IMG/VR virus record: IMGVR_UViG_3300020060_000015 | Span: 1 to 43,871 of that record | Direction: 5' to 3' (one strand) | DNA length: 43,871 nt | DNA from: a virus | Shown here: positions 21,977-37,894 of the stretch, piece after piece | How the letters are laid out: each line of letters opens with the position of its first letter | Position numbering within the stretch: the first letter of the stretch is position 1 | Translations under genes and position numbers: made by a program | The notes under the pieces: generated by a model | The model's database searches: none | What the model saw: only the letters and a program-made list of their open reading frames with translations | What the model was told of the DNA's origin: nothing

Positions 21977-22224
21977 TCGGCTGTCTCCGGTAAAATCACA
22001 CAGGCCTCGAACAGGCTCTTATCGTACGTAGCAATCTTGCTTCCCTTCGTGAAGTAGTAGAGGCCGTTGCTGTATGTGATGACGCCCCGCCCCATCTCCT
22101 CCGGCTGTCCTGATGACTTGCAGATGAGACGGCTCACATAGGGCGGACTACGCAGGCTGTAGATGGCAGAGCCGAATCCGGAAAGGGCAATGAATCCAAG
22201 AATCCCGTAGGCAACGTGCTTCAT
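21973..22224 (-). CDS. Small membrane or exported protein
   Basis: An 83-residue protein with an N-terminal hydrophobic segment (VAYGILGFIALSGFGSAIY, residues 4-22) and a polar C-terminus with two Cys. It may be anchored or exported. ATG overlaps the upstream stop (ATGA). No family recognised. Confidence 0.6.
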   Translation of the reverse strand: MKHVAYGILGFIALSGFGSAIYSLRSPPYVSRLICKSSGQPEEMGRGVITYSNGLYYFTKGSKIATYDKSLFEACVILPETAE

Positions 22225-22739
22225 GGCAGTAGCTCAGGGCGATACTTCCTCAGAACACCAATGGCGAATGCGATAAGCTCGTCCTCTGTGGCGTCATTCT
22301 TCATTTTGTTAGCCTGATATGAGATGACTTCAATGTTCCCCTTGATATAGCCTTTGCTAGAATCAATCCGATCCACAGAGGGTCCGTATCTATTTCGTTG
22401 ATTCCTTGTCCTCTCAAGATCGATGGGCACCCCGAGATACGGACAAGATTCGGGAATTAGGATGTCGGTGCGTTTTATGTCGTGCTCAAACCCCTTCTTC
22501 TTGGCCGTCGTGCATGTCGCCTTGAACAGTCGTCGATCTGGATTCTCTCCGTAGTATTCCCACATCCTCTCGTTGAACCTGTCGCGGTGCTTATTACGCC
22601 AACGGATCGAGTCTTGTCGGTGGCACTCCTTGCACTTTTTGCAGTTGTACCAGCCGTGTTGGACGAAGAACTCTCGGGTCTTTACACATTTGCATCGATA
22701 GCAAGTCAGCCCCTCTGACTCACTTTCAGCGCCCGTCAT
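22221..22739 (-). CDS. HNH-type endonuclease with zinc finger
   Basis: A 172-residue protein from ATG 22739, which overlaps the 5' nuclease stop as ATGA. Residues 13-45 contain a four-Cys zinc finger (CYRCKCVK, later CKKCKECH). The C-terminal half has the phage HNH variant core: ESCPYLGVPIDL, then PSVDRIDSSKGYIKGNIEVI and SYQANKMKNDAT, in which the D-R-I-D and N residues form the metal site. Placement directly behind a replication nuclease is the usual setting of free-standing homing endonucleases. Confidence 0.8.
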   Translation of the reverse strand: MTGAESESEGLTCYRCKCVKTREFFVQHGWYNCKKCKECHRQDSIRWRNKHRDRFNERMWEYYGENPDRRLFKATCTTAKKKGFEHDIKRTDILIPESCPYLGVPIDLERTRNQRNRYGPSVDRIDSSKGYIKGNIEVISYQANKMKNDATEDELIAFAIGVLRKYRPELLP

Positions 22740-23582
22740 GAAGACCCTTGGGGGATCATAGGAGGGACCCACGCGGTAGACGGGTTCGTTATGTCCTCTT
22801 CTTTCCGCAACAGAAATAACAGTTGCGCGTTCTCCTTCATCGCCGCCCACGCTGTTTTGCCGTAGGCTCGTAAATATTCGGCGTAGGTCAGGGTGAACAT
22901 GAGTTTTTCATTGGTGTGGTTCCCCAGAATTTTGGCTGCTGTCTTAGGCCCCATCCCCGGAACACCACGGATTGCATCTGTCGCGTCGCCCGTTAACAAC
23001 TGTGTGTAGAAGTTCCTCTTGGCTTCTTCCGGACTGACGTATCTGATCTCTTTCTTCTTCCAGTCGTAGAGTCTTATGCCCTCGACTTGAGCCAGGTCCT
23101 TGTCCCGTGTAGCTACGATGGAGTGCTTCGGGTCTTTGAGGAACTCAATCACCAAGGCATCATCTGCCTCGATCCCTTCCACCATCTCCCCGTTGCACTC
23201 TTCGATGAGGAACTGCTGCACCGAGGAAAACCACGTCGGCTTTGCTGCTGTCCGATTTCCCTTGTACGGCTGTATCGTTGCTAGCTCGTAGCGGAAGTTG
23301 CCAGGACCCGTAAGGAATCCTTTGTAGCTCTTGACCGGCGCACACGCATCGAGGATTGACTGAAGGAGTTGACGGCAGTTCTGACGTGCGTGCGACTCGG
23401 GCTGAGCCCTGACGATCGTCTCGATCTGCTCTTCGTCTGCTTCTGGATGTGCTTCCTTTAGCTTTCTCTTCCCTTCGTACTCCGTCCCGTTGTAGCGGTA
23501 GCTGACGGTCTCTGCTGCGCATGCGGCGCTGTAAACACAGATGTCGTTAATAGTCCACGAGCACGATGTTCTCGTTACTCAT
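22736..23582 (-). CDS. 5'-3' exonuclease / flap nuclease, frame changes after codon 10
   Basis: The frame open to 22736 has all core motifs of the T7 gp6/FEN family: GIEADDALVIEF, VATRDKDLAQ and the helix-three-turn-helix TGDATDAIRGVPGMGPKTAA. Its only conventional in-frame start is GTG 23221, which would cut the protein in half, yet coding continues upstream to NDICVYSAACAAE and on to 23579. The first strand with the catalytic Asp is in another frame: ATG 23582 (overlapping the previous stop as ATGA) reads MSNENIVLVDY then TAA at 23549. A +1 shift at that point joins them to about 281 residues, close to T7 gp6 (300). Either recoding, a real mutation or a sequence error. Confidence 0.72.
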
Positions 23583-25629: not shown

Positions 25630-25994
25630 TTTCCCCGTGCTGGTTTTCGTGTCTTCTCCTTGAGTGCGTTGAGACACTCCTTCGTTAGATGCTCTAGTAG
25701 GTAACAGAACGGCTCACTATTAGCTGCGGACGCCTCTGTTCTTACCCGCTCAAAGATGTAGAAGACAGCGTGTGTCAGTTCGTGTACCAGCACCTCCAGC
25801 CCGCCGTTGAAGTAGCCAACGATCAGTGCTCCGTCTTGGCAAGAAGTGCATTGGCCTTGACACCACTGCACGCGCTCTTCGTCCATGTTCGGGTCGTATT
25901 CCTTGACCGCTGCGATGTACTTGGCCTCGTCCGTGTACAGCCGGAGGTGGTTCTTGTACGGCGTCACCTCGATGTTGAGGACTGGCTGCTTCAC
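25626..25994 (-). CDS. HExxH metallopeptidase-like protein
   Basis: A 122-residue protein with VLVHELTHAVFYIFERV (HELTH, residues about 70-74) and a downstream Glu-containing helix (NSEPFCYLLEHLTKE) that could supply the third zinc ligand. Two CxxC-like Cys pairs (WCQGQCTSC) lie just before it. Phages often encode such small zinc peptidase-like proteins, function unknown. GTG start overlaps the reductase stop (GTGA). Confidence 0.65.
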   Translation of the reverse strand: MKQPVLNIEVTPYKNHLRLYTDEAKYIAAVKEYDPNMDEERVQWCQGQCTSCQDGALIVGYFNGGLEVLVHELTHAVFYIFERVRTEASAANSEPFCYLLEHLTKECLNALKEKTRKPARGK

Positions 25995-28900
25995 GCTATC
26001 TCACAGACGTTACCAACACACGCCAGCTCACGACTTCCTGTCGTTTCATCCTCGATCTCGTACTTCGTCAACTGCGACCAGTCGATTGAGGCGGGCATCT
26101 TCGCTGCCGCTGCTTCGTATTCCTCCTTCGTGATGGCCTGGAACGGAGCTTGCTTATACGTGCCTTGGTCGAATGGCAGGAACGAGATGCCGGTGATGTC
26201 ATCAAAGTGCTTGTAGACCCACGCCCCAACTTCCATCCATTCGTGCTCTCGGACTGAGACTGTCACCGACACCGTATGCTCGGCCCAGTTGGTGTTGTAC
26301 TTCTTCCAAAGCTCCAAGTGATTCAGGGCAGTTAGGTCCTCCTTCGTGGTCGCCCCGTCCGGAGCTTTCATCGGGAAGTAGAAAATCGTCGTGGACTCCG
26401 GCCTCGTGACACATGGCTCGTTCGGGATACCTTGGTCCTTCATGAGCTTCGTTAATGCATCCTTGTTGTCCTGCCGCACAGCTCGGAGATAGAACGGTGC
26501 GTGTCGCGGGTGGATGCCGCTGGCCGTGTTGCTCAGGCTGCTCGTCGTGCCTGCCGGTTTCACGCAGGTTACTGACGTGCTCGGATTGATGCCCAGCTTC
26601 TCTGCCCAAATCTTGTTCGTCTCGATCGCCTTCGCTTTCAGACATTGCTGATTGGCGTCTAGCTCATTCCACTCTTCGCCCCATCCGCTCGTCAGCTTGT
26701 TGTCGTAGATGCCGGTGAAGCTGACGCCTAGCAGACGCTCCTCTTCGATGTTTCGCTTCCACCCCGGCCGTAGGTATCGGAACGTAGTGAACGTGCTCTG
26801 GATCGTGCCGAGGATTGTTGCCAGCTCAACCTTCTCCAACAGCGTTTCAATCTTGTCTTCCGGCCGGACAACTACTTCAGTGAGGTTGCACGTCTGCAAA
26901 GATCGCAGCAGTATTTCCAGGCACGGATTCCCGCCCCACTCATGGTCCGGGTCTCGGCGACCCAGCCGCTTCATCTTTCGCTTCGCGCCGTCGCGGTTGA
27001 AGATGCCTCGCTCCCCCGACTTGCTCTGATAGAGGGCCAGCCACTCCTGCATAAACGCATCGGTGTCGGGCTTCTCCGTGTACGCAACGCTGTTGTTGGC
27101 GAGGCTGTACTCGGGGTGGCTCTCCCACCACTGACCAGACTTCGCGTTGCGCATGCGTTGATCTGTGAGGTTTGAGAGGCTAATGAGAGCTGAGTTGTGA
27201 ACGAGGTAGCCGTTACAGTAGAACTCGTTATACTCGTCAACCTCAATGTCCCAAGTCGGCAACGTCTCGTAGTCCTCCCTCTCCAACACGGCAACGGGGG
27301 TGAAGGGGTATTTCGTCTCCGTCAATTCTTCCCAAAGTTCGATCGGACAGTTGACCTTGTGGTTCTGGTGGTAATGGGTCTTGTGTCGTGAGTCTGCCGT
27401 CTTCTGAATCATCCCCGCAGGAAAGGAATAGGAAAACATTTCCTTGCTGCGTGTTCTTGCGGCCTCTTGTTTGTACTTGAGGAACTTCCCGACCGTTGCA
27501 TAGAACTGCGTTTCTTGTTTAGTCCCTTTCAACAGCACTCGATAGAGCGGCTTCCAGTTTCCCTGTGCCGGGCGATTACAATGGGATCGCGTTGCGAACC
27601 CAAGAGACGCACACAGGGCTTGTAAGTCATGCAGAAACCCCAGATGCACGCACGACATCACCTGTATCGGACGGCTTGACACTGACCCGTCTCCATCCAT
27701 GACCCCGGCCAAATACGCGGATCGCGTTTCCGCCGTGCCCTGTAAGATAAAGTCAGGGACTCGGAACGGCTGGCTCGACTCTTTCATGTTCTCTTGAAAC
27801 CAAAGAGCCAAGGCAACACTTGCGGTTTTCACGATGGAACAGTCACCATCCCCCTTGCCGACACGAACGTTGGTCCCGAAACGTTCAAGCTGTGTCTTAC
27901 AGACTTCCGCCAAACCGGCCGCAGCATTGGGCACGCACACCGAAACAACCGAGTTACGTTTTCCAGGTGATCTATAGCGAATGGCGCTGTGACCGTTTGC
28001 GTGGTAATAGCCCAGAAACCACGCCATCTCGACATCCAGCGTTGGTATAGAGATGCTCTTGGCCGTGTACGCCCTCTCAGGCTTCTCGTAAGTAGACGCG
28101 GGCAGCACTGTGTAGGAGCCATCAATAGCAACCGCAGAGAACAGAAGGCGATCGTTCTCCTGTAGTTCCGATGCCTCTTTCCAAACGTACCCTCCATAAA
28201 CGTCTGTTAGTACGGCCACTCTATGATTTGGCGTACAAACCAGTTGCCCGGTCTGTGTGAGGACTTTGACAGTGGCTTGTTGGCCTTGGTCAAACTTGTC
28301 GCGAATCAGTTTGTAGCCGCCACTAGTAAGCGCTTCATCCTCCCCCGGCACCACGTCCTCGATCGGCACTAGTCCCCGGCGAGTGTGGACAAGTGATCCT
28401 GCGGGCAGACACCTGCGAACCCCGCCAACAACAATCGCCTCGCCGATCTTGCACATGATCCCGTGCGCCTCTAGCGAGTTGAGCTTCCTACCCGCTGCGC
28501 CTTTGAACACACGCACGCAATAGTTCAGAAGATCAACCAACGGCTGCGGCCCAGAGGCCCGACCACCAAACACCTTGAGACGAGCACCAGCAGGACGGAC
28601 AGCAGAGACATCGAACTTGGGAACCTGGCCGTTGTAGAGCAGCCCAATGGTTTCCTTGAGAGACGTGGCCCAGCCAACCTTGGAGTCCCTCACCTTGATA
28701 ACCGTATCGGTGTCGTGGAACTCTTCTGCTACATCCGGCAACTGACTGATGAACTGCCGTTCGACCGAGAACCCCAGCCCCGTGCCACATGACAGGATGT
28801 AGAGCGCTTCGTCGAATGCGCGCGGATGTTCGATTGCCAAATATGAACAGTTGTATCCGGCCATGTGGTCCCGATCCAATGCGGGGCCGGCTGTCATCAT

Positions 28901-29134
28901 TGCCCGCATGCTGGGCAGCACCAGCGTCTTGCGAATGTAGTCAAACGCCTTCTCGCAGACTTCCTCGATCTCCTTTTTCTTGAACCCTGCCTCTGTCAGC
29001 ACGGGGCGGACAACGTTCTCTACATACCGACGAGGGGGTTCAGGCCAAATCTCTCGCCTGCCTTCCTCGTCCAACCATCTGCTGTACTTGCTTGTTGCGA
29101 TGTACTGCTGAAACAGCGTCTCTAGTTCTTCCAA
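25991..29134 (-). CDS. Class II (B12-dependent) ribonucleotide reductase with intein
   Basis: The 1047-residue precursor contains a 406-residue intein; the spliced enzyme would have 641 residues, somewhat shorter than the monomeric Lactobacillus-type reductase (about 740). Extein motifs: GYNCSYLAIE (Cys96, partner of the reducible pair), SCGTGLGFSVERQ, VVGGVRR before and SALISLSNL after the intein, NPCLE (N736, C738, E740: radical site) with LQTCNL (C749), VKPAGTTSSLSNTASGIHPRHA, and C-terminal CVGNVC (C1039, C1044) for re-reduction. These fit the adenosylcobalamin-dependent class, which makes deoxynucleotides without a separate radical subunit. Start is TTG two bases after the previous stop. 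Confidence 0.88.
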   Translation of the reverse strand: MEELETLFQQYIATSKYSRWLDEEGRREIWPEPPRRYVENVVRPVLTEAGFKKKEIEEVCEKAFDYIRKTLVLPSMRAMMTAGPALDRDHMAGYNCSYLAIEHPRAFDEALYILSCGTGLGFSVERQFISQLPDVAEEFHDTDTVIKVRDSKVGWATSLKETIGLLYNGQVPKFDVSAVRPAGARLKVFGGRASGPQPLVDLLNYCVRVFKGAAGRKLNSLEAHGIMCKIGEAIVVGGVRRCLPAGSLVHTRRGLVPIEDVVPGEDEALTSGGYKLIRDKFDQGQQATVKVLTQTGQLVCTPNHRVAVLTDVYGGYVWKEASELQENDRLLFSAVAIDGSYTVLPASTYEKPERAYTAKSISIPTLDVEMAWFLGYYHANGHSAIRYRSPGKRNSVVSVCVPNAAAGLAEVCKTQLERFGTNVRVGKGDGDCSIVKTASVALALWFQENMKESSQPFRVPDFILQGTAETRSAYLAGVMDGDGSVSSRPIQVMSCVHLGFLHDLQALCASLGFATRSHCNRPAQGNWKPLYRVLLKGTKQETQFYATVGKFLKYKQEAARTRSKEMFSYSFPAGMIQKTADSRHKTHYHQNHKVNCPIELWEELTETKYPFTPVAVLEREDYETLPTWDIEVDEYNEFYCNGYLVHNSALISLSNLTDQRMRNAKSGQWWESHPEYSLANNSVAYTEKPDTDAFMQEWLALYQSKSGERGIFNRDGAKRKMKRLGRRDPDHEWGGNPCLEILLRSLQTCNLTEVVVRPEDKIETLLEKVELATILGTIQSTFTTFRYLRPGWKRNIEEERLLGVSFTGIYDNKLTSGWGEEWNELDANQQCLKAKAIETNKIWAEKLGINPSTSVTCVKPAGTTSSLSNTASGIHPRHAPFYLRAVRQDNKDALTKLMKDQGIPNEPCVTRPESTTIFYFPMKAPDGATTKEDLTALNHLELWKKYNTNWAEHTVSVTVSVREHEWMEVGAWVYKHFDDITGISFLPFDQGTYKQAPFQAITKEEYEAAAAKMPASIDWSQLTKYEIEDETTGSRELACVGNVCEIA
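27194..28411 (-). mobile_element. Intein with LAGLIDADG homing endonuclease
   Basis: Residues 242-647 of the reductase precursor. It begins with Cys (CLPAGSLVHTRRGLVPIEDV), has the splicing block B pattern TPNHRVAV, two LAGLIDADG-type motifs (WFLGYYHANG at 372-381, degenerate, and YLAGVMDGDG at 474-483), and ends with WDIEVDEYNEFYCNGYLVHN followed by Ser648. All residues required for splicing are present (Cys1, the block-B His, terminal Asn, +1 Ser); the penultimate His of HN is also present. The first LAGLIDADG motif lacks its acidic residue (Asn instead of Asp), so cleavage activity may be weakened. Confidence 0.88.
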
Positions 29135-31496: not shown

Positions 31497-32024
31497 TTAG
31501 CTCTCCGATGTTTTCAGTGCTTGTTCCAATGGGATCGGCTTGTAGCCTGTCTGTTCCGCACTCACGCACACGTATCGCGGATCATCAAACCACTCCTCGT
31601 CTCGTCCGTAGTGCTGTACCGCACGATCATGGAGGTGCCCGTGGATGTTCAACTTGAATCTGACCAGCTCTGTCGGGTGAACTGGGATGTGGCTCAGAAT
31701 GGCCCTCTCCAACACTGTGTAGGCCCGAATGTCCCTGAAGTACGGCGTGTATTCCTCCAATCGAAAGACATCGTGGTTGCCCTTGATCAGCACCTTGTCG
31801 CCGTTCAGGCGCCCCGCTGTGGGCAGCGCCTTGCGGTTGATACAGAAGTCGCCGAGAACGTACACCTTGTCCTTCGGCCCCACCGTGGCGTTCCAGAGAG
31901 CGACCATAGCCTCGTCCATCTCCTCGGTAGTGTCCCAAGGACGGAGCTTGGAGCCATCGTCCCGAAGGAAGCGGCATACGCCCTTGTGTCCGAAGTGAGT
32001 GTCTGCGATAACGAAATCGGTCAC
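31497..32024 (-). CDS. Calcineurin-like metallophosphoesterase
   Basis: A 175-residue protein with the full set of metallophosphoesterase motifs: IADTHFGH (D-x-H), YVLGDFC (GD), LIKGNHDV (GNHD), ILSHIPVHP and HGHLHD. Length and composition match small phage phosphoesterases related to YfcE/MJ0936-type enzymes. Substrate unknown (phosphodiester, cyclic nucleotide or RNA end). The ATG overlaps the polymerase stop by 4 nt. Confidence 0.85.
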   Translation of the reverse strand: MTDFVIADTHFGHKGVCRFLRDDGSKLRPWDTTEEMDEAMVALWNATVGPKDKVYVLGDFCINRKALPTAGRLNGDKVLIKGNHDVFRLEEYTPYFRDIRAYTVLERAILSHIPVHPTELVRFKLNIHGHLHDRAVQHYGRDEEWFDDPRYVCVSAEQTGYKPIPLEQALKTSES

Positions 32025-33520
32025 TTCAAATCCGCCCAGGTCTGTCCCACTTTCCCTTCCGACAGCAGGGGCACCTTCATCTTGAAGTACTCCCCCGCCC
32101 TCTTGATCGACTCACAGCCGATCTCTAGTATCTGTTCAGCTATCTCTGGGTCGCATTCGTACACATACTCGTCGTGCATCATGAGGACCCGTCTTGCGTA
32201 GAACTGTCCAACTCTGTAACCAGTATAGCACTGTTCAACTGTAGAATCAAGGATTATTCCGCCTAGCTGGCGGTCCATCCAAGCTGCCGAGAAGTCCATC
32301 ACTACCGAGCCCGTGGACTGGATGAGCAGGTTGACCAGGCTGTGGCGGGCTCTGGACCACACCTTGCGGCCGTCTATACCCACGATGTACTTCTTACCGT
32401 TTGCTTCCCAGTGACAGCCTAGCGCCTCGTCTAGGTCCTTCAGGGGCTTGTTCAGGTCCCAATAGTCTTGGTGTCGCTTCGCTGCTTCCGATTGTGAACA
32501 CTTGATCGTGCCAGCCAGCTTCTTGACGCCGCAGAAGTACCCGAGGGCGTACGTGCCATTCTTGGCAATGCTGCGGTCAATGCCCCAGAGGTCTGCGTTT
32601 TCCTGATGTGGGTCGAAGCCTTCGGAAAGAATCTTTTCAGCGTAAGCGCCCCCGTCGTATGAGTAGGTGAAGTGCCCCTTCAGCCTGTCCTCAAGGCTCG
32701 AAGCATCGAACCCCACCAGCACCTTCCCCGGAGCTGCTTTGAACAGCTCCCGCATCTCCTTCCCTAGTAGGACGTGCTCCTTGTTCTTCGGGATGTTTGC
32801 TACTACAGAATGCTTCTGTCTGAATGTCGGCGTGATACCCGCTGACGCTGCTGACAATCGGCCGTCGAACTCCAAGCGTCTGTTACCAAGCCACCCTTCC
32901 AGCACTGACAGCCGGTTCCGATAGGACAGCCACTTCACCACTTGCTTGATCAGATCGCCCTGCATCGAGAGCAGGTTCGGGCATATCTTCCCGTTCTCCT
33001 GCATCTTTGGTGACGACTTGATCGGCTCCTTCGTCTTCGGATCGCGCAGCGGCTTCCCGTCCTCTCCTCGCTCGAAGTTCCACAGCGTGCTTTCCCAGCC
33101 CTCGGCCACCAGCCAGCTCTTGATGTCGTCCTGGTTCCCCAGCTTCATCGGCATGGTGGCAGGAAGCTCCTTGCCGCCTTCTATGCGGTGGAACGTGCCA
33201 TCTAGCCAAAGAATCTGGTTGTCGTTGCAAGCCTCTACTCCGTGCTTCTGTAGCCATTTTAGGAACACTTCGGAGTAGGAGCCATCCTTCTTAAACGGCC
33301 GTGCTGGGATTGTGTATTGGTGGCGCTCCGCTGATTTCAATTTCCGTGGCGGAAGCTGGGGTTCACACTCTGCTTCCAACCTCGTCTGTTCCTTTCTGAT
33401 GTACTCCGTCAGTTCTCTCGCCTTCTCAATGTCGAACCGCACCCCGCACAACTCCTGAGCTGCCTGCAAATAACTGCACCGATGAGCAAGGCGGAGTGCT
33501 TTGTCCCACGAAATTTCCAT
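32021..33520 (-). CDS. T7-like family A DNA polymerase, polymerase domain only
   Basis: A 499-residue protein matching the polymerase part of T7 gp5. Residues 1-60 correspond to the thumb-side helices after the exonuclease domain. Motif A GFDASSLEDR (D272), motif B with R316, K320 and Tyr324 (RSIAKNGTYALGYFCG), GIDGRKVWSRARHSLVN, motif C MMHDEYVYE (H449, D450, E451) and the C-terminal LSEGKVGQTWADLK all align. The Tyr at the Y526 position of T7 gp5 is kept. The 3'-5' exonuclease domain is absent and is encoded by a separate gene at 35144-35614. ATG 33520 follows the previous stop by 3 nt. Confidence 0.9.
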   Translation of the reverse strand: MEISWDKALRLAHRCSYLQAAQELCGVRFDIEKARELTEYIRKEQTRLEAECEPQLPPRKLKSAERHQYTIPARPFKKDGSYSEVFLKWLQKHGVEACNDNQILWLDGTFHRIEGGKELPATMPMKLGNQDDIKSWLVAEGWESTLWNFERGEDGKPLRDPKTKEPIKSSPKMQENGKICPNLLSMQGDLIKQVVKWLSYRNRLSVLEGWLGNRRLEFDGRLSAASAGITPTFRQKHSVVANIPKNKEHVLLGKEMRELFKAAPGKVLVGFDASSLEDRLKGHFTYSYDGGAYAEKILSEGFDPHQENADLWGIDRSIAKNGTYALGYFCGVKKLAGTIKCSQSEAAKRHQDYWDLNKPLKDLDEALGCHWEANGKKYIVGIDGRKVWSRARHSLVNLLIQSTGSVVMDFSAAWMDRQLGGIILDSTVEQCYTGYRVGQFYARRVLMMHDEYVYECDPEIAEQILEIGCESIKRAGEYFKMKVPLLSEGKVGQTWADLK

Positions 33521-33523
33521 CTT

Positions 33524-33742
33524 CTACGGTTTGAGAGTTGGCAGTGGCATCCAAGCTTCTGCTCGCCAACCATCTTCTATTCCGTGCCAATACCCGTTGC
33601 TCACGCCGCTCCATCTGCAATCTGTGAAACGGCGGTATATGAAATCGTCCTCCCGAGTCCTCCAAGCCTTAGCAAGAATGTCGATCTTTGTGTCTCCGGA
33701 CCCACGCGGGGCCGTGCTCATCGGCTGCCATACACTACTCAT
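33524..33742 (-). CDS. DUF551-like protein
   Basis: A 72-residue protein with the DUF551 signature: WQPMSTAPRGSG at the N-terminus and WRAEAWMPLPTLKP at the C-terminus. Such proteins are common in phage accessory regions and have no known function. It sits between the two polymerase pieces. Compare with the interrupted copy at 42054-42698. Confidence 0.75.
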   Translation of the reverse strand: MSSVWQPMSTAPRGSGDTKIDILAKAWRTREDDFIYRRFTDCRWSGVSNGYWHGIEDGWRAEAWMPLPTLKP

Positions 33743-33965
33743 CCGAAGGAGAATCCAAACGCTGCCTTTCGACTACATCCGCCGCATACGCTCCAATGAC
33801 GTACTTGCAGGGTTTGTCTTTGATGGCTAGCCAGAGGACGTGCTTAAGCTCGTCGTGTGTGAGGTCTTCCAGCATCAGGTCTACGTCTTCTTCCCATGCG
33901 TTTAGAAGATCGAGGGATGCATCATCTTCAAAGGGGGGATCAAGACAAGGCTGTACTTTTAGCAT
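33735..33965 (-). CDS. Hypothetical acidic protein
   Basis: A 76-residue acidic protein from ATG 33965 (MLKVQPCLDPPFEDDASLDL, then WEEDVDLMLEDLTHDELKH). Its leader reads AACAGCGGAGCGACACCCAA, similar to the repeat units of the SSB-like leader. Unknown function. Confidence 0.6.
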   Translation of the reverse strand: MLKVQPCLDPPFEDDASLDLLNAWEEDVDLMLEDLTHDELKHVLWLAIKDKPCKYVIGAYAADVVERQRLDSPSDE

Positions 33966-33984
33966 TTGGGTGTCGCTCCGCTGT

Positions 33985-34155
33985 TTAGAATGGACGAAGG
34001 CAGGAATAGATCGAGCATCCCGCAAGGAAAATCGTGAGCACGCTCAGTGGAACCGAGACTTGATCTTTGAACTTCATGCCCCCTGCCAGAGAGGCCACGA
34101 TTAAGAATGCTCCGGGGACAATGCCCAGCCCCGAGATGAGCTCATCAAGTGTCAC
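33985..34155 (-). CDS. Small two-span membrane protein
   Basis: A 56-residue protein from GTG 34155 (GTGA overlap with the upstream stop). Two hydrophobic segments (LGIVPGAFLIVASLAGG and VSVPLSVLTIFLAGCSIYS) separated by a short basic loop. It has the size of a holin or another small membrane protein but is far from the spanins; function not assigned. Confidence 0.6.
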   Translation of the reverse strand: MTLDELISGLGIVPGAFLIVASLAGGMKFKDQVSVPLSVLTIFLAGCSIYSCLRPF

Positions 34156-34637
34156 TGTGCATCCTCCGCATGAGGCGGAGCCGAAGCCACCAAAACACAC
34201 TCCACTATGTAGACAGTGCGATCAGCCATGAGGTCTCGGAAGTCGTGGAAGTTCTCCTTCGCTTCACTCAGCGCTTCTTCCTTGGTCTTTCTCCACTGAC
34301 CGTAGTCAGAAGAAGACGGCTCCCACCAAGTAAAGCGATATTCTTGGGAGGGATCGGAGGCGTAGGATTCAGCGGATGTATTCGGTAGCTCGCCTGCCGG
34401 CGATGTGTCGCGCCCTTGGCGCTCTTCCTGCGGTCGCTGGACAAGCGCGTCCCGCCAGTGCGGCACCATGACAGCGTCATCGGCTCCGCTGCTCACCACG
34501 AGATACAGCCCATTGCGACGCCACCGCCGCCCAACGTCGTACGCAGTGGGCTTAATGGCGAAGAGCATCTCTGCACCATCCTGGTCTACTGCATACCACT
34601 CAGCCCACGAAGGGGCGCGTTCCCAGATACTGTTCAT
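34152..34637 (-). CDS. Hypothetical protein
   Basis: A 161-residue protein (MNSIWERAPSWAEWYAVDQD start), with an N-terminal WAEWYAVDQDGAEMLFAI region and a C-terminal helical DFRDLMADRTVYIVECVLVA. ATG has AGGAG 6 nt upstream. Unknown family. Confidence 0.6.
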   Translation of the reverse strand: MNSIWERAPSWAEWYAVDQDGAEMLFAIKPTAYDVGRRWRRNGLYLVVSSGADDAVMVPHWRDALVQRPQEERQGRDTSPAGELPNTSAESYASDPSQEYRFTWWEPSSSDYGQWRKTKEEALSEAKENFHDFRDLMADRTVYIVECVLVASAPPHAEDAQ

Positions 34638-34661
34638 CTCTGTCTCCTGTACGTGTACACT

Positions 34662-34671
34662 TGTTGCTTGT
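34662..34671 (-). promoter_or_regulatory. Leader box ACAAGCAACA between divergent genes
   Basis: Exact copy on the minus strand, 24 nt before the ATG at 34637. The 47-nt space between the two divergent starts (34638-34684) also contains the palindrome GTGTACAC (34653-34660) and the AAGGAGGT ribosome binding site of the plus-strand gene. Confidence 0.5.
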
Positions 34672-34684
34672 CTAAGGAGGTCCT

Positions 34685-34900
34685 ATGGACAACTCCCTAC
34701 GTGTCTATCCCGTTGCCACCTACGAGGCTGGCCCCATGCTCCGTCTCGGCCTCTTCTGCCTGCGCTTCCACTACTGGGCTACTCCAGAATCCAAGCCCAC
34801 AGTAGGAAGGCGTTACACCATGACGCCTGCTCAGATGAGAACGCTTGCCAAGCAGATGCTCGAAGACGCAGACATGCTGGAAGCTAGGAAGGCTGGCTAG
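34685..34900 (+). CDS. Small plus-strand protein inside the early module
   Basis: A 71-residue protein preceded by a perfect ribosome binding site (AAGGAGGTCCT before ATG). Sequence: YEAGPMLRLGLFCLRFHYWA, then GRRYTMTPAQMRTLAKQMLE and a helical end, which resembles small bacterial proteins of the BssS-like type with a T-x-A/x-QAR-x-LA helix (tentative). It runs against all surrounding genes, diverging from the gene at 34152 and sharing only the CTAG stop tetranucleotide with the convergent gene at 34897. Separately regulated, possibly a lysogenic or moron gene. Confidence 0.65.
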   Translation: MDNSLRVYPVATYEAGPMLRLGLFCLRFHYWATPESKPTVGRRYTMTPAQMRTLAKQMLEDADMLEARKAG

Positions 34901-35130
34901 CGGCCCTTGGCCCACCACTGCGGAGAACCACGCAGCGCCTGCGAGAGCTGCGCCATGCCGAGGTGCTCGGGGAAGAAGCCGACCTTCTCCTGACGCAGGG
35001 CGTTCCTGTAGACAGCCGCTTGCGGGCCGGTGCTCTGTGCTAGCCAAGTCTTGAGTGTTCGTGCCCACCCAGCCGAAACGGGCTTGAGCTTTTCTTTGCG
35101 TGCAGGCTGTTGCTGGTTGCGGTTGTTCAA
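34897..35130 (-). CDS. Hypothetical basic protein
   Basis: A 77-residue basic protein starting at TTG 35130 with AGGAG 7 nt upstream. Contains KLKPVSAGWARTLKTWLAQS and a C-terminal AQLSQALRGSPQWWAK. Its stop (TAG) overlaps the stop of the opposite plus-strand gene through the palindrome CTAG. Unknown function. Confidence 0.6.
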   Translation of the reverse strand: MNNRNQQQPARKEKLKPVSAGWARTLKTWLAQSTGPQAAVYRNALRQEKVGFFPEHLGMAQLSQALRGSPQWWAKGR

Positions 35131-35143
35131 TTGATGTCTCCTG

Positions 35144-35614
35144 TTAGGTGTTTCGTTGTTCCTTGATCAGCGCCTTGTAGACTTCGTGTGTCAGCAAAAC
35201 GTCGTTCTCGCAATACCGTCGCATGTCGTCGCTATACGCGGTGAAGTCCTTGTGATCGAGCTTCGGAAAGCCCAGTACCTCTCCCCATTTTTCTAGCGAA
35301 TGAGCCCCGCCGTTCCTGTCGGCGTGTTGGTAGCGGCTGAGAACCAAGCAGTCTGTGATCTTCACTGGCCGTCCGTTGAATGTGTCCGGGCCAATTGCGA
35401 AGGGCAGATTCCAAAGTAGCCACAGCACGTAATGGTCGAAGCCGACGCCATTAAAGGAAATCAGATGCGTCCATTGCTCGCTGTCTCTGACAAACTCTTC
35501 TCGTTCCGTGTATGTCTTGATGTTGCCTGTTGCTGTCTCTAGAACGCTTATGCAATGTATCTTTGACGTATAGGGAAGGAGATCATCGGTTTCACAATCC
35601 CAAACTATCTCCAA
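35144..35614 (-). CDS. Stand-alone 3'-5' exonuclease domain of the T7-like polymerase
   Basis: A 156-residue protein equal to the N-terminal exonuclease domain of T7 gp5: Exo I WDCETDD (D6, E8), Exo II FNGVGFDHYVL (D60), the family-specific TDCLVLSRYQHADRNGGAHS and LEKWGEVLGFPKLDHKDF, and Exo III with Tyr134 and D138 (YCENDVLLTHEVY). The TTG start at 35614 is supported by GGAGG 6 nt upstream and lies 23 nt inside the end of the GIY-YIG gene. It ends at the domain boundary; the polymerase domain is a separate gene about 1.6 kb downstream. It probably proofreads as a subunit in trans. Confidence 0.85.
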   Translation of the reverse strand: MEIVWDCETDDLLPYTSKIHCISVLETATGNIKTYTEREEFVRDSEQWTHLISFNGVGFDHYVLWLLWNLPFAIGPDTFNGRPVKITDCLVLSRYQHADRNGGAHSLEKWGEVLGFPKLDHKDFTAYSDDMRRYCENDVLLTHEVYKALIKEQRNT

Positions 35615-36233
35615 GCGCAGCCTCCGCTTTCCGTTTTGACCACCACGCCTTCGAGCGCACGGATTGCTGCGCCTTGAACTCGTCCGTATGTCGCATTCCG
35701 AGGGACGGTTTTTTGCCGGCTCTTGCCACACACAATCTTGCACGATGTTCTGCGGAGAGGCTTTTACCTTTATGGGAGATGGATATCTTCTTCCTACTTT
35801 CTTCGCTCACCTCGTGACCCATACGCTTTGCCGACATCTTTGCTCTCGCCTCTGGCGTCCATTGTTTATGGTTCATCCTGGACTTAGACATACGCTGCAA
35901 TGTCTCGGGAGAATGTTTCCTCCCCAGCATCGGCGAATGAGCAGAAGGACTCACGTTATACCCACGGGCAACGGCCGTGCCCAACTGTGTCAAATGAAAC
36001 TGCTCCCGATCAAGGCGCTCTTCTCTCAAGCATTCTTCTATTACCTCAAAAGCGAACGCCAACTCTCCATATTCGTCCCATGCCTTTTGTAATTTTCTAC
36101 TGTGGTGTTTACATCGCCTGAGCGCAGACAGATGACAACGTTTGCGATGTTCAAAGTTCACTGCTGAGCCTATGTATTTATCGTCATTGACCGTGTTTCT
36201 AATTTGATACACGCAACAAACTGCGGAGACCAT
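35592..36233 (-). CDS. GIY-YIG homing endonuclease with NUMOD3-type motifs
   Basis: A 213-residue protein. The GIY-YIG domain is at the N-terminus: VYQIRNTVNDDKYIGSAV, with the usual GIY and YIG reduced to VYQIR and KYIG, then FEHRKRCHLSALRR (catalytic Arg/His region) and LDREQFHLTQL (catalytic Glu in WE/DREQ). The C-terminal half has NUMOD3-like DNA-binding repeats (GRKHSPETLQRMSKS, later HEVSEESRKKISISHKGKS). It is inserted between the primase-helicase (TAATG overlap) and the exonuclease gene, whose start it overlaps. Confidence 0.85.
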   Translation of the reverse strand: MVSAVCCVYQIRNTVNDDKYIGSAVNFEHRKRCHLSALRRCKHHSRKLQKAWDEYGELAFAFEVIEECLREERLDREQFHLTQLGTAVARGYNVSPSAHSPMLGRKHSPETLQRMSKSRMNHKQWTPEARAKMSAKRMGHEVSEESRKKISISHKGKSLSAEHRARLCVARAGKKPSLGMRHTDEFKAQQSVRSKAWWSKRKAEAALGDSLGL

Positions 36234-37894
36234 TAGTAGTCAACCTCGACCGGCTCCAGCGCCCCCTTGTCTGTGTTGTAGAGAAGATAATCCCCCAGTC
36301 CGATCGTCCCTTCTTCCCTGTTCTTAAAGATGCGTGTTCGAGTCAACGGCCTCGCTGTGTCGTCTGCGGGGTCGGTGATCTGCCGCTCGATGCCGATGAT
36401 GTTTGAAACCAAATGCTCAAGACCTCCGCTACCTCGGCCGTCCTGATAGGTCAGAAGCTCCCAATACGGGTACTTCGTCACGCCAGCCTTGTCACGATCT
36501 CGGGTCTTGCGGTTGATATGGACGACGAGGATTAGGTGGATGTCTGTGTCCTCAACGAACTTCGCCAGCTTCGTCATGAGCTGGTCGATCGCCTTTCGTT
36601 CGTCTTTCTCGTCGCGGCTGGAGATGACGTAGCTCATGTGGTCGAGCACGCCTGTCTTACATCCCTTGACCTTGACGAAGAACGCCAGCTTGTTGAGAAG
36701 AGATTCGTCGGTGAGGAGGGACTTCGCATTCGTCAACAGTTCCAGCCTGCTAAGAAGGTTGGTGTTGGCGTCCTCTACGACCTCGCGGGGAATGATGGTT
36801 GGGTCGCGACGGAAACGATTGAGCGCGACGCCACCGTGAAGCGCGATGATCCCTTGCCGGGTCTTCTTCTTTCCTTCCTCCAAGAAAATGTTGAACACCG
36901 GTTCAGACTGTTTGGTCAGTAAGTCGTACGTGACTTGGCGGCAGGCAGTCGTCTTGCCTGTGCCTGTTGGCGCCAGCAACAGAGTGATCTCTCCGCCTCT
37001 AAGGCCTTGTAGCTTCTTCATCGTGTTCGGGAGAAAATCGATGAACACCCCTTTCTTGTTCGGGATGAGCAACTCTCCGATGTCGTCAACCCTGCCGTTC
37101 TCGACAGCCTCGGGCGAGTAGTCTTTCGCACCCAAGAGACAGCTCCACCAACCCTCAACGTCTCCGGCTTCCAGATACTTGCCAGTATCTTTCCGCTTGA
37201 GCGTCATGATTTTGACTTCGCACTGCGAGACTAGGTGCTCTGCGAGAGCCTTCGTGGTAGCCATGCCCGGGCCGTCGTTGTCCAAGCAGATGACCACGAG
37301 CTTGTGCGAGGTGAAGAACTCCAGCTCCTTGCGAGTAGTGGCGTCCAGCTCGCCGGCTTCATTAGCCCCGTTGGGGAGACTGGCGACGTTGTAGTTCTTC
37401 CCTTTTTGACGCAGCATTTCCCACGCCGACATTGCGTCGATCTCTCCTTCAAACACTAGGAGCATCTTGGCGTTGGGTTTGCACTGCTGGGAACCGAAGA
37501 GGCCCTTGATCTTCCCAACCACGGAGAACTCTTTCGGCAGGCGGCGCTTCTTATACCCGACAATCTCTCCTTCACTGGAGTAGTAGGGGTAGAAGTGGTC
37601 AGTGATTTCCTGAGCTGTCTCTTCATCGACAGCAACGCGCACACCAAATCTACGGCAAGTCTCTTCCGATATGCCGCGATCTTCCAAGGCACGGAATGGG
37701 TACTTCTTGATCGCAGATAGTTCTAGACCGCTGTCATTCTTCATTCTGTTCCGTGTTGTGGGTGTTGCTTGTAGCGGGTAGTACTTGTTGCACTTGTGGC
37801 ACATGCCGCCGCGTTCATCGGCGAACACGTTTAGATTGTCACCAGCCGTGTCCTCTCCCCGCTCAGCACAGCCGGGGCACTGCGTCTTCCGCAC
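36233..37894 (-). CDS. T7 gp4-like primase-helicase
   Basis: A 553-residue bifunctional protein, close to T7 gp4 (566). Zinc-binding domain at residues 6-35 (CPGC and CHKC), TOPRIM primase domain with EGEID (149-153) and LDND (204-207), a linker, then a RecA-like hexameric helicase with Walker A APTGTGKTT (308-316), a Walker B region near GVLDHMSYVI (Asp), and RIFKNREEGTIG near the C-terminus. It unwinds the fork and makes primers. GTG start at 37894. An internal ATG at codon 51 (37744), just behind the zinc finger, could give a helicase-only form as T7 does with gp4B. Confidence 0.9.
   Translation of the reverse strand: MRKTQCPGCAERGEDTAGDNLNVFADERGGMCHKCNKYYPLQATPTTRNRMKNDSGLELSAIKKYPFRALEDRGISEETCRRFGVRVAVDEETAQEITDHFYPYYSSEGEIVGYKKRRLPKEFSVVGKIKGLFGSQQCKPNAKMLLVFEGEIDAMSAWEMLRQKGKNYNVASLPNGANEAGELDATTRKELEFFTSHKLVVICLDNDGPGMATTKALAEHLVSQCEVKIMTLKRKDTGKYLEAGDVEGWWSCLLGAKDYSPEAVENGRVDDIGELLIPNKKGVFIDFLPNTMKKLQGLRGGEITLLLAPTGTGKTTACRQVTYDLLTKQSEPVFNIFLEEGKKKTRQGIIALHGGVALNRFRRDPTIIPREVVEDANTNLLSRLELLTNAKSLLTDESLLNKLAFFVKVKGCKTGVLDHMSYVISSRDEKDERKAIDQLMTKLAKFVEDTDIHLILVVHINRKTRDRDKAGVTKYPYWELLTYQDGRGSGGLEHLVSNIIGIERQITDPADDTARPLTRTRIFKNREEGTIGLGDYLLYNTDKGALEPVEVDY
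37763..37772 (-). promoter_or_regulatory. Leader box ACAAGCAACA inside primase-helicase gene
   Basis: Exact copy located within coding sequence, 18 nt before the internal ATG at 37744, with CGGAA 5 nt before that ATG. Same geometry as boxes before true gene starts. Confidence 0.45.

Follow-up and report, generated by a model that had tools for sequence, protein, structure and literature searches.

Our analyses support the fission of a T7-type DNA polymerase into two genes in the virus of IMG/VR record IMGVR_UViG_3300020060_000015, of which the whole stretch of 43,871 nucleotides (hereafter the window) was analysed. In the account that we favour, to which we assign a probability of roughly 0.7, a one-chain polymerase would have acquired a stop and a start codon in the linker that joins its exonuclease domain to its polymerase domain, and would thereby have been broken in two. 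Small accessory genes would then have gathered in the gap, and the exonuclease, now a protein of its own, most likely continues to dock on the polymerase, or to act at the primer end that the polymerase uses, and to edit mismatches in trans. The order of these steps, with the stop and start codons first and the genes later, is derived from present-day forms and not from a dated series. The split arrangement is not categorically new, since phages of the LUZ24 and phiEco32 groups already carry the same split; what is new here, judging from the comparison of sequences, is that the window lineage split its polymerase independently of those groups.

Two genes and the gap between them

The genes for both halves of the polymerase run in the same direction, downstream of a phage helicase gene (see table). 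The smaller product had been read in the first-pass annotation as a gp5-type exonuclease ending at the domain border, and this is borne out by its catalytic residues (D6, E8, D60, Y134 and D138; Exo I-III motifs, DEDDy) and by its match to positions 673-827 of PHROG 17, the T7-type polymerase family (E = 1e-23). A better fit to unrelated exonucleases, which would have spoken against that reading, was not observed, the match to PHROG 403 reaching only E = 1.5e-9. Its kinship with gp5 rests on profiles, because a phmmer search of the PDB with the 156-aa protein as single query was too weak and returned nothing relevant. The five catalytic residues are invariant in an alignment of six split and fused exonucleases, and nearly all split exonucleases keep the catalytic residues in a wider alignment. 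In the exonuclease of the closest split relative (L009:6078-6536), GHGILSFD stands in place of the window's SFNGVGFD, the Exo II asparagine being missing and the catalytic Asp kept. The TTG start codon lies at 35614, with GCGGAGG about 6 nt upstream; a longer reading of 199 aa from a GTG is possible, in which the extra N-terminus is without homology and the exonuclease match starts at residue 45.

The larger product corresponds, as had also been described, to thumb, palm and fingers with motifs A to C, starting after the border. It matches PHROG 17 at positions 834-1233 (E = 6e-71), and its polymerase motifs are conserved (motif A, D272/E277; motif B, the O helix with its Tyr, R316-K320-Y324; motif C, H449-D450-E451). 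The predicted model of this protein has a mean pLDDT of 89.2, and PDB ranks 1 to 26 are all T7 DNA polymerase (E down to 6e-25). T7 gp5, the best structural match, shares its fold and motifs at about 21% identity in the structural alignment; unlike gp5, which is one chain, the 499-aa chain begins after the linker and carries no proofreading exonuclease. In the thumb of the model, two long helices are separated by about 130 residues, enough to accommodate a binding insert. The thioredoxin processivity factor of T7 is supplied by its host, and no thioredoxin gene was found on the contig; nor was a second family A polymerase, fused or other, found on its 43,871 bp.

Both halves fit adjoining stretches of the single PHROG 17 profile end to end, a match that is not due to chance. 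In the predicted model of a fused relative (L013; 701 aa, pLDDT 91.8), whose best PDB match is also T7 polymerase, the end of the window exonuclease and the start of the window polymerase flank the linker KDVYGK, located between the helices at 156-184 and 192-210. Relative to this fused protein, about six linker residues are missing at the break, and neither domain is damaged. The separation of some 1.6 kb with six small genes, one of them on the opposite strand, stands as first described: the gap measures 1,623 bp and holds six plausible ORFs, one on the plus strand. None of them turned up between the two genes of the closest relative, L009.

Features of the window that bear on the split polymerase, in order of position
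Feature	Position	Strand	Remarks
Second DnaQ-like exonuclease, 249 aa	19733..20482	-	DEDD-type, other family (PHROG 403 'DNA polymerase exonuclease subunit'), E = 6e-80
Separate family A DNA polymerase gene, 499 aa	32021..33520	-	Thumb/palm/fingers, without exonuclease domain
Stretch between exonuclease and polymerase	33521..35143		1,623 bp, six small ORFs
72-aa ORF	33524..33742	-	Ends 3 nt before the polymerase start (ATG 3 nt after its stop); without family match
Small ORF, up to 96 aa	33735..34025	-	Without family match
Small ORF, at most 71 aa	33985..34200	-	Without family match
161-aa ORF	34152..34637	-	Weak PHROG match
71-aa BssS-like ORF	34685..34900	+	Opposite strand; PF13991, E 6e-7
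77-aa ORF	34897..35130	-	Homologue in L009 at 2708-2878, upstream of the L009 helicase gene, outside the L009 gap
Separate 3'-5' exonuclease gene, 156 aa	35144..35614	-	T7 gp5 N-terminal domain homologue, DEDDy; TTG start
GIY-YIG/NUMOD3 homing endonuclease	35592..36233	-	Overlaps exonuclease start by 23 bp; helicase side, outside the break
T7-type primase/helicase, 553 aa	36233..37894	-	Upstream of exonuclease or fused gene in relatives

Several other features of the contig were observed. A ribonucleotide reductase gene (25991-29134, minus strand) is interrupted by an intein that carries a LAGLIDADG-type domain (PF14528, PF14890). Within 22221-23221 (minus strand), the match of a 161-aa ORF to the phage exonuclease family PHROG 107 is confined to the middle of the profile (positions 210-376 of 542; 5'-3' exonuclease C-terminal fold). 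This ORF also overlaps one for an endonuclease (PHROG 3322 / endonuclease VII-like); the gene may be interrupted. Besides its T7-type replication module, the contig carries a tyrosine integrase (PF00589; 39436-40458, minus strand), and a temperate or integrating life style of the phage is possible. A DNA-level search of phage records with the window gave no match, and a scan of bacterial genomes for prophage or host traces yielded only three distant loci, in metagenome-assembled genomes.

Split and fused relatives and the number of origins

The first-pass annotation took a single chain, as in T7 gp5, for the known state, which is true of T7 and misses the separate exonuclease and polymerase genes of two phage groups. 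Passages of PMC3517423 and PMC3890496 report such genes in LUZ24-group and phiEco32-group phages, the phiEco32-group precedent being given by way of the phage tf paper, and the database records of oldone, BroderSalsa and MLP3 show the split directly. In the LUZ24 group (Bruynoghevirus: LUZ24, PaP3, tf, UFV-P2, oldone) and in BroderSalsa, the genes are labelled '3'-5' exonuclease / DNA polymerase part I' and 'part II'; they resemble those of the window in the break at the same domain border, in the order helicase, exonuclease, small genes, polymerase, and in a gap of about 1.6-1.9 kb, but belong to another polymerase lineage. Their exonuclease is also without the segment around GPDTFNG, which is common to the window and L009 and has a related form in a fused homologue, that of phage vB_PsaM_M1. 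The phiEco32 group (Kuravirus MLP3, examined here, and Salmonella phage 7-11) likewise has separate genes for an exonuclease subunit and a family A polymerase; in MLP3, however, these lie about 8.3 kb apart, and its polymerase falls in a clade with the LUZ24 group and apart from the window. The OM43 phages MEP401 and MEP402 also encode their family A polymerase in two ORFs (PMC10580990), although there the break lies inside the polymerase domain, away from the exonuclease border.

Further phages with the same arrangement, a search for which had been suggested at the outset, were found among IMG/VR contigs recovered by profile scans and classified with exonuclease and polymerase HMMs (L-numbers; the loci are pieces of contigs). 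The split relatives comprise L009, L016/L039, L021, L023, L025/L037, L017, L024, L034 and L112, together with the more distant L118, and fused relatives include L013, L018, L020 and L026-L032 as well as the named phage vB_PsaM_M1. In the relatives, the exonuclease gene, or the fused gene where there is one, has the helicase gene on its upstream side. The closest split relative, L009, is 67% identical to the window in the polymerase and 52% in the exonuclease, with 1,461 bp between its two genes. Across the split members, the gap ranges from a 1-bp overlap of exonuclease stop and polymerase start in L034 (junction sequence TACTGATGACC) through one small gene (L017, L024, L016) and two (L023) to the six of the window. 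L021 holds the two genes of the L023 gap plus a 268-aa ORF (L021:4727-5533), which with its DPPY motif looks like a DNA methyltransferase and is probably a recent gain or loss, because it is absent from the near-identical gap of L023.

Two of these loci show additional peculiarities. At L034:2557-4784 the polymerase gene is broken again inside the thumb region, giving three polymerase pieces with the exonuclease, and a 214-aa ORF that by eye resembles an endonuclease spans this second break. At L118:4766-6876 a distant T7-like polymerase is split at the exonuclease border into two genes, for proteins of 225 aa and 436 aa, with 122 bp between them; since it clusters with T7 at the end of a long branch, it may represent a further independent split.

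Gene fission from a fused ancestor, as first proposed, is the best account of the arrangement. The nearest named homologue of the window polymerase, that of Pseudomonas phage vB_PsaM_M1, is 40% identical, colinear and directly preceded by a helicase gene, but is fused in one chain of 698 aa. In the polymerase-domain tree (48 rows), the window and L009 form a pair (support 100/100) near the M1-like fused clade, and the LUZ24-group and Kuravirus polymerases are placed near T7. Forcing all split polymerases into one clade costs 86 log-likelihood units and is rejected (AU p = 2.2e-7). Because the window lineage and the LUZ24/Kuravirus group are thus rejected as one clade, the split arose more than once, and the split state changed at least twice overall. 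When only the window and its split kin are constrained to a single clade, the test does not reject it (p = 0.186, or 0.178 with L112 added), although the tree does not recover such a clade; within this group, one fission may have been followed by a later re-fusion.

The trees of exonuclease and polymerase are largely congruent and agree in their main groups. Exonuclease and polymerase distances are correlated in split (Spearman 0.62) and in fused members (0.67), values that we use only as a sign of co-inheritance because the pairs are not independent. We give an even chance to a wider reading, in which T7-type polymerases would have lost the covalent tie to their exonuclease several times, on each occasion at this linker. 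Two lineages at the least, and perhaps three or more, would be concerned (the window's group, LUZ24/Kuravirus and possibly L118), the reason being that the exonuclease works in trans; the forms preserved in the window's group would be intermediates, leading from a simple stop/start break to a gap with six genes.

Function of the separate exonuclease and cause of the break

We infer that the separate exonuclease likely proofreads for the polymerase in trans, because its catalytic residues persist despite large divergence, the two genes are co-inherited and share one orientation, and neither folded domain is touched by the break; it would presumably dock on the polymerase. Alternatively, the second DnaQ-like exonuclease of the contig could carry out the proofreading or take part in it, the gp5-type fragment being a relic or having moved to DNA degradation or repair. 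This second protein matches PHROG 403 (see table), full-length homologues of it occur in the split L021, L023 and L025, and some of its phage homologues are annotated as a DnaQ-like polymerase III subunit. However, PHROG 403 proteins are also found beside intact fused exonuclease-polymerases (A7_1, L027 and L029) and hence do not look like a stand-in for a lost domain, while the gp5-type exonuclease, which keeps its catalytic residues and tracks the polymerase phylogeny, fits poorly with a relic. We consider this alternative unlikely.

As to the cause of the break, the simplest path would be a point mutation creating a stop codon with a start codon nearby, as in L034. The first-pass annotation had instead suspected that insertion of the GIY-YIG endonuclease broke the polymerase gene, given that this GIY-YIG/NUMOD3 gene abuts the exonuclease gene; polymerase genes of the window's group are, moreover, also broken inside the polymerase domain in L034, L038 and L040. 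Yet the endonuclease gene lies on the wrong side, upstream of the exonuclease and outside the break, and no GIY-YIG gene was found at the loci (contig pieces) of the split relatives L009, L016, L017, L021, L023-L025, L034 and L112, L034 being split by a mere stop/start overlap. The endonuclease is therefore probably not the cause of the split, and fission driven by it is very improbable.

Still less credible is a model that treats the two ORFs as exons of a single gene with an intron between them, removed by trans-splicing or long cis-splicing, as proposed for the LUZ24-type phage UFV-P2 by its authors, who read its 'DNA polymerase part I' and 'part II' genes as exons (PMC3890496). In the window, both ORFs have start and stop codons of their own, a strong ribosome site precedes the exonuclease start, a gene on the opposite strand lies between the two, and no Rfam family matched within 31900-36400, even at E up to 5. 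An assembly chimera or sequencing error can be set aside, misassembly being ruled out by a separate IMG/VR contig that matches the window over 13,279 bp at 99.99% identity (one gap, zero mismatches), and relatives share the layout.

In family A polymerases that proofread, the exonuclease normally resides on the same chain as the polymerase, and the primer end can thus shuttle between both sites. That the domain break arose more than once, with the catalytic residues kept, suggests that the covalent tie is dispensable, and L034, with its 1-bp overlap, and its fused relatives constitute natural pairs for assessing the share of this tie in fidelity and processivity.
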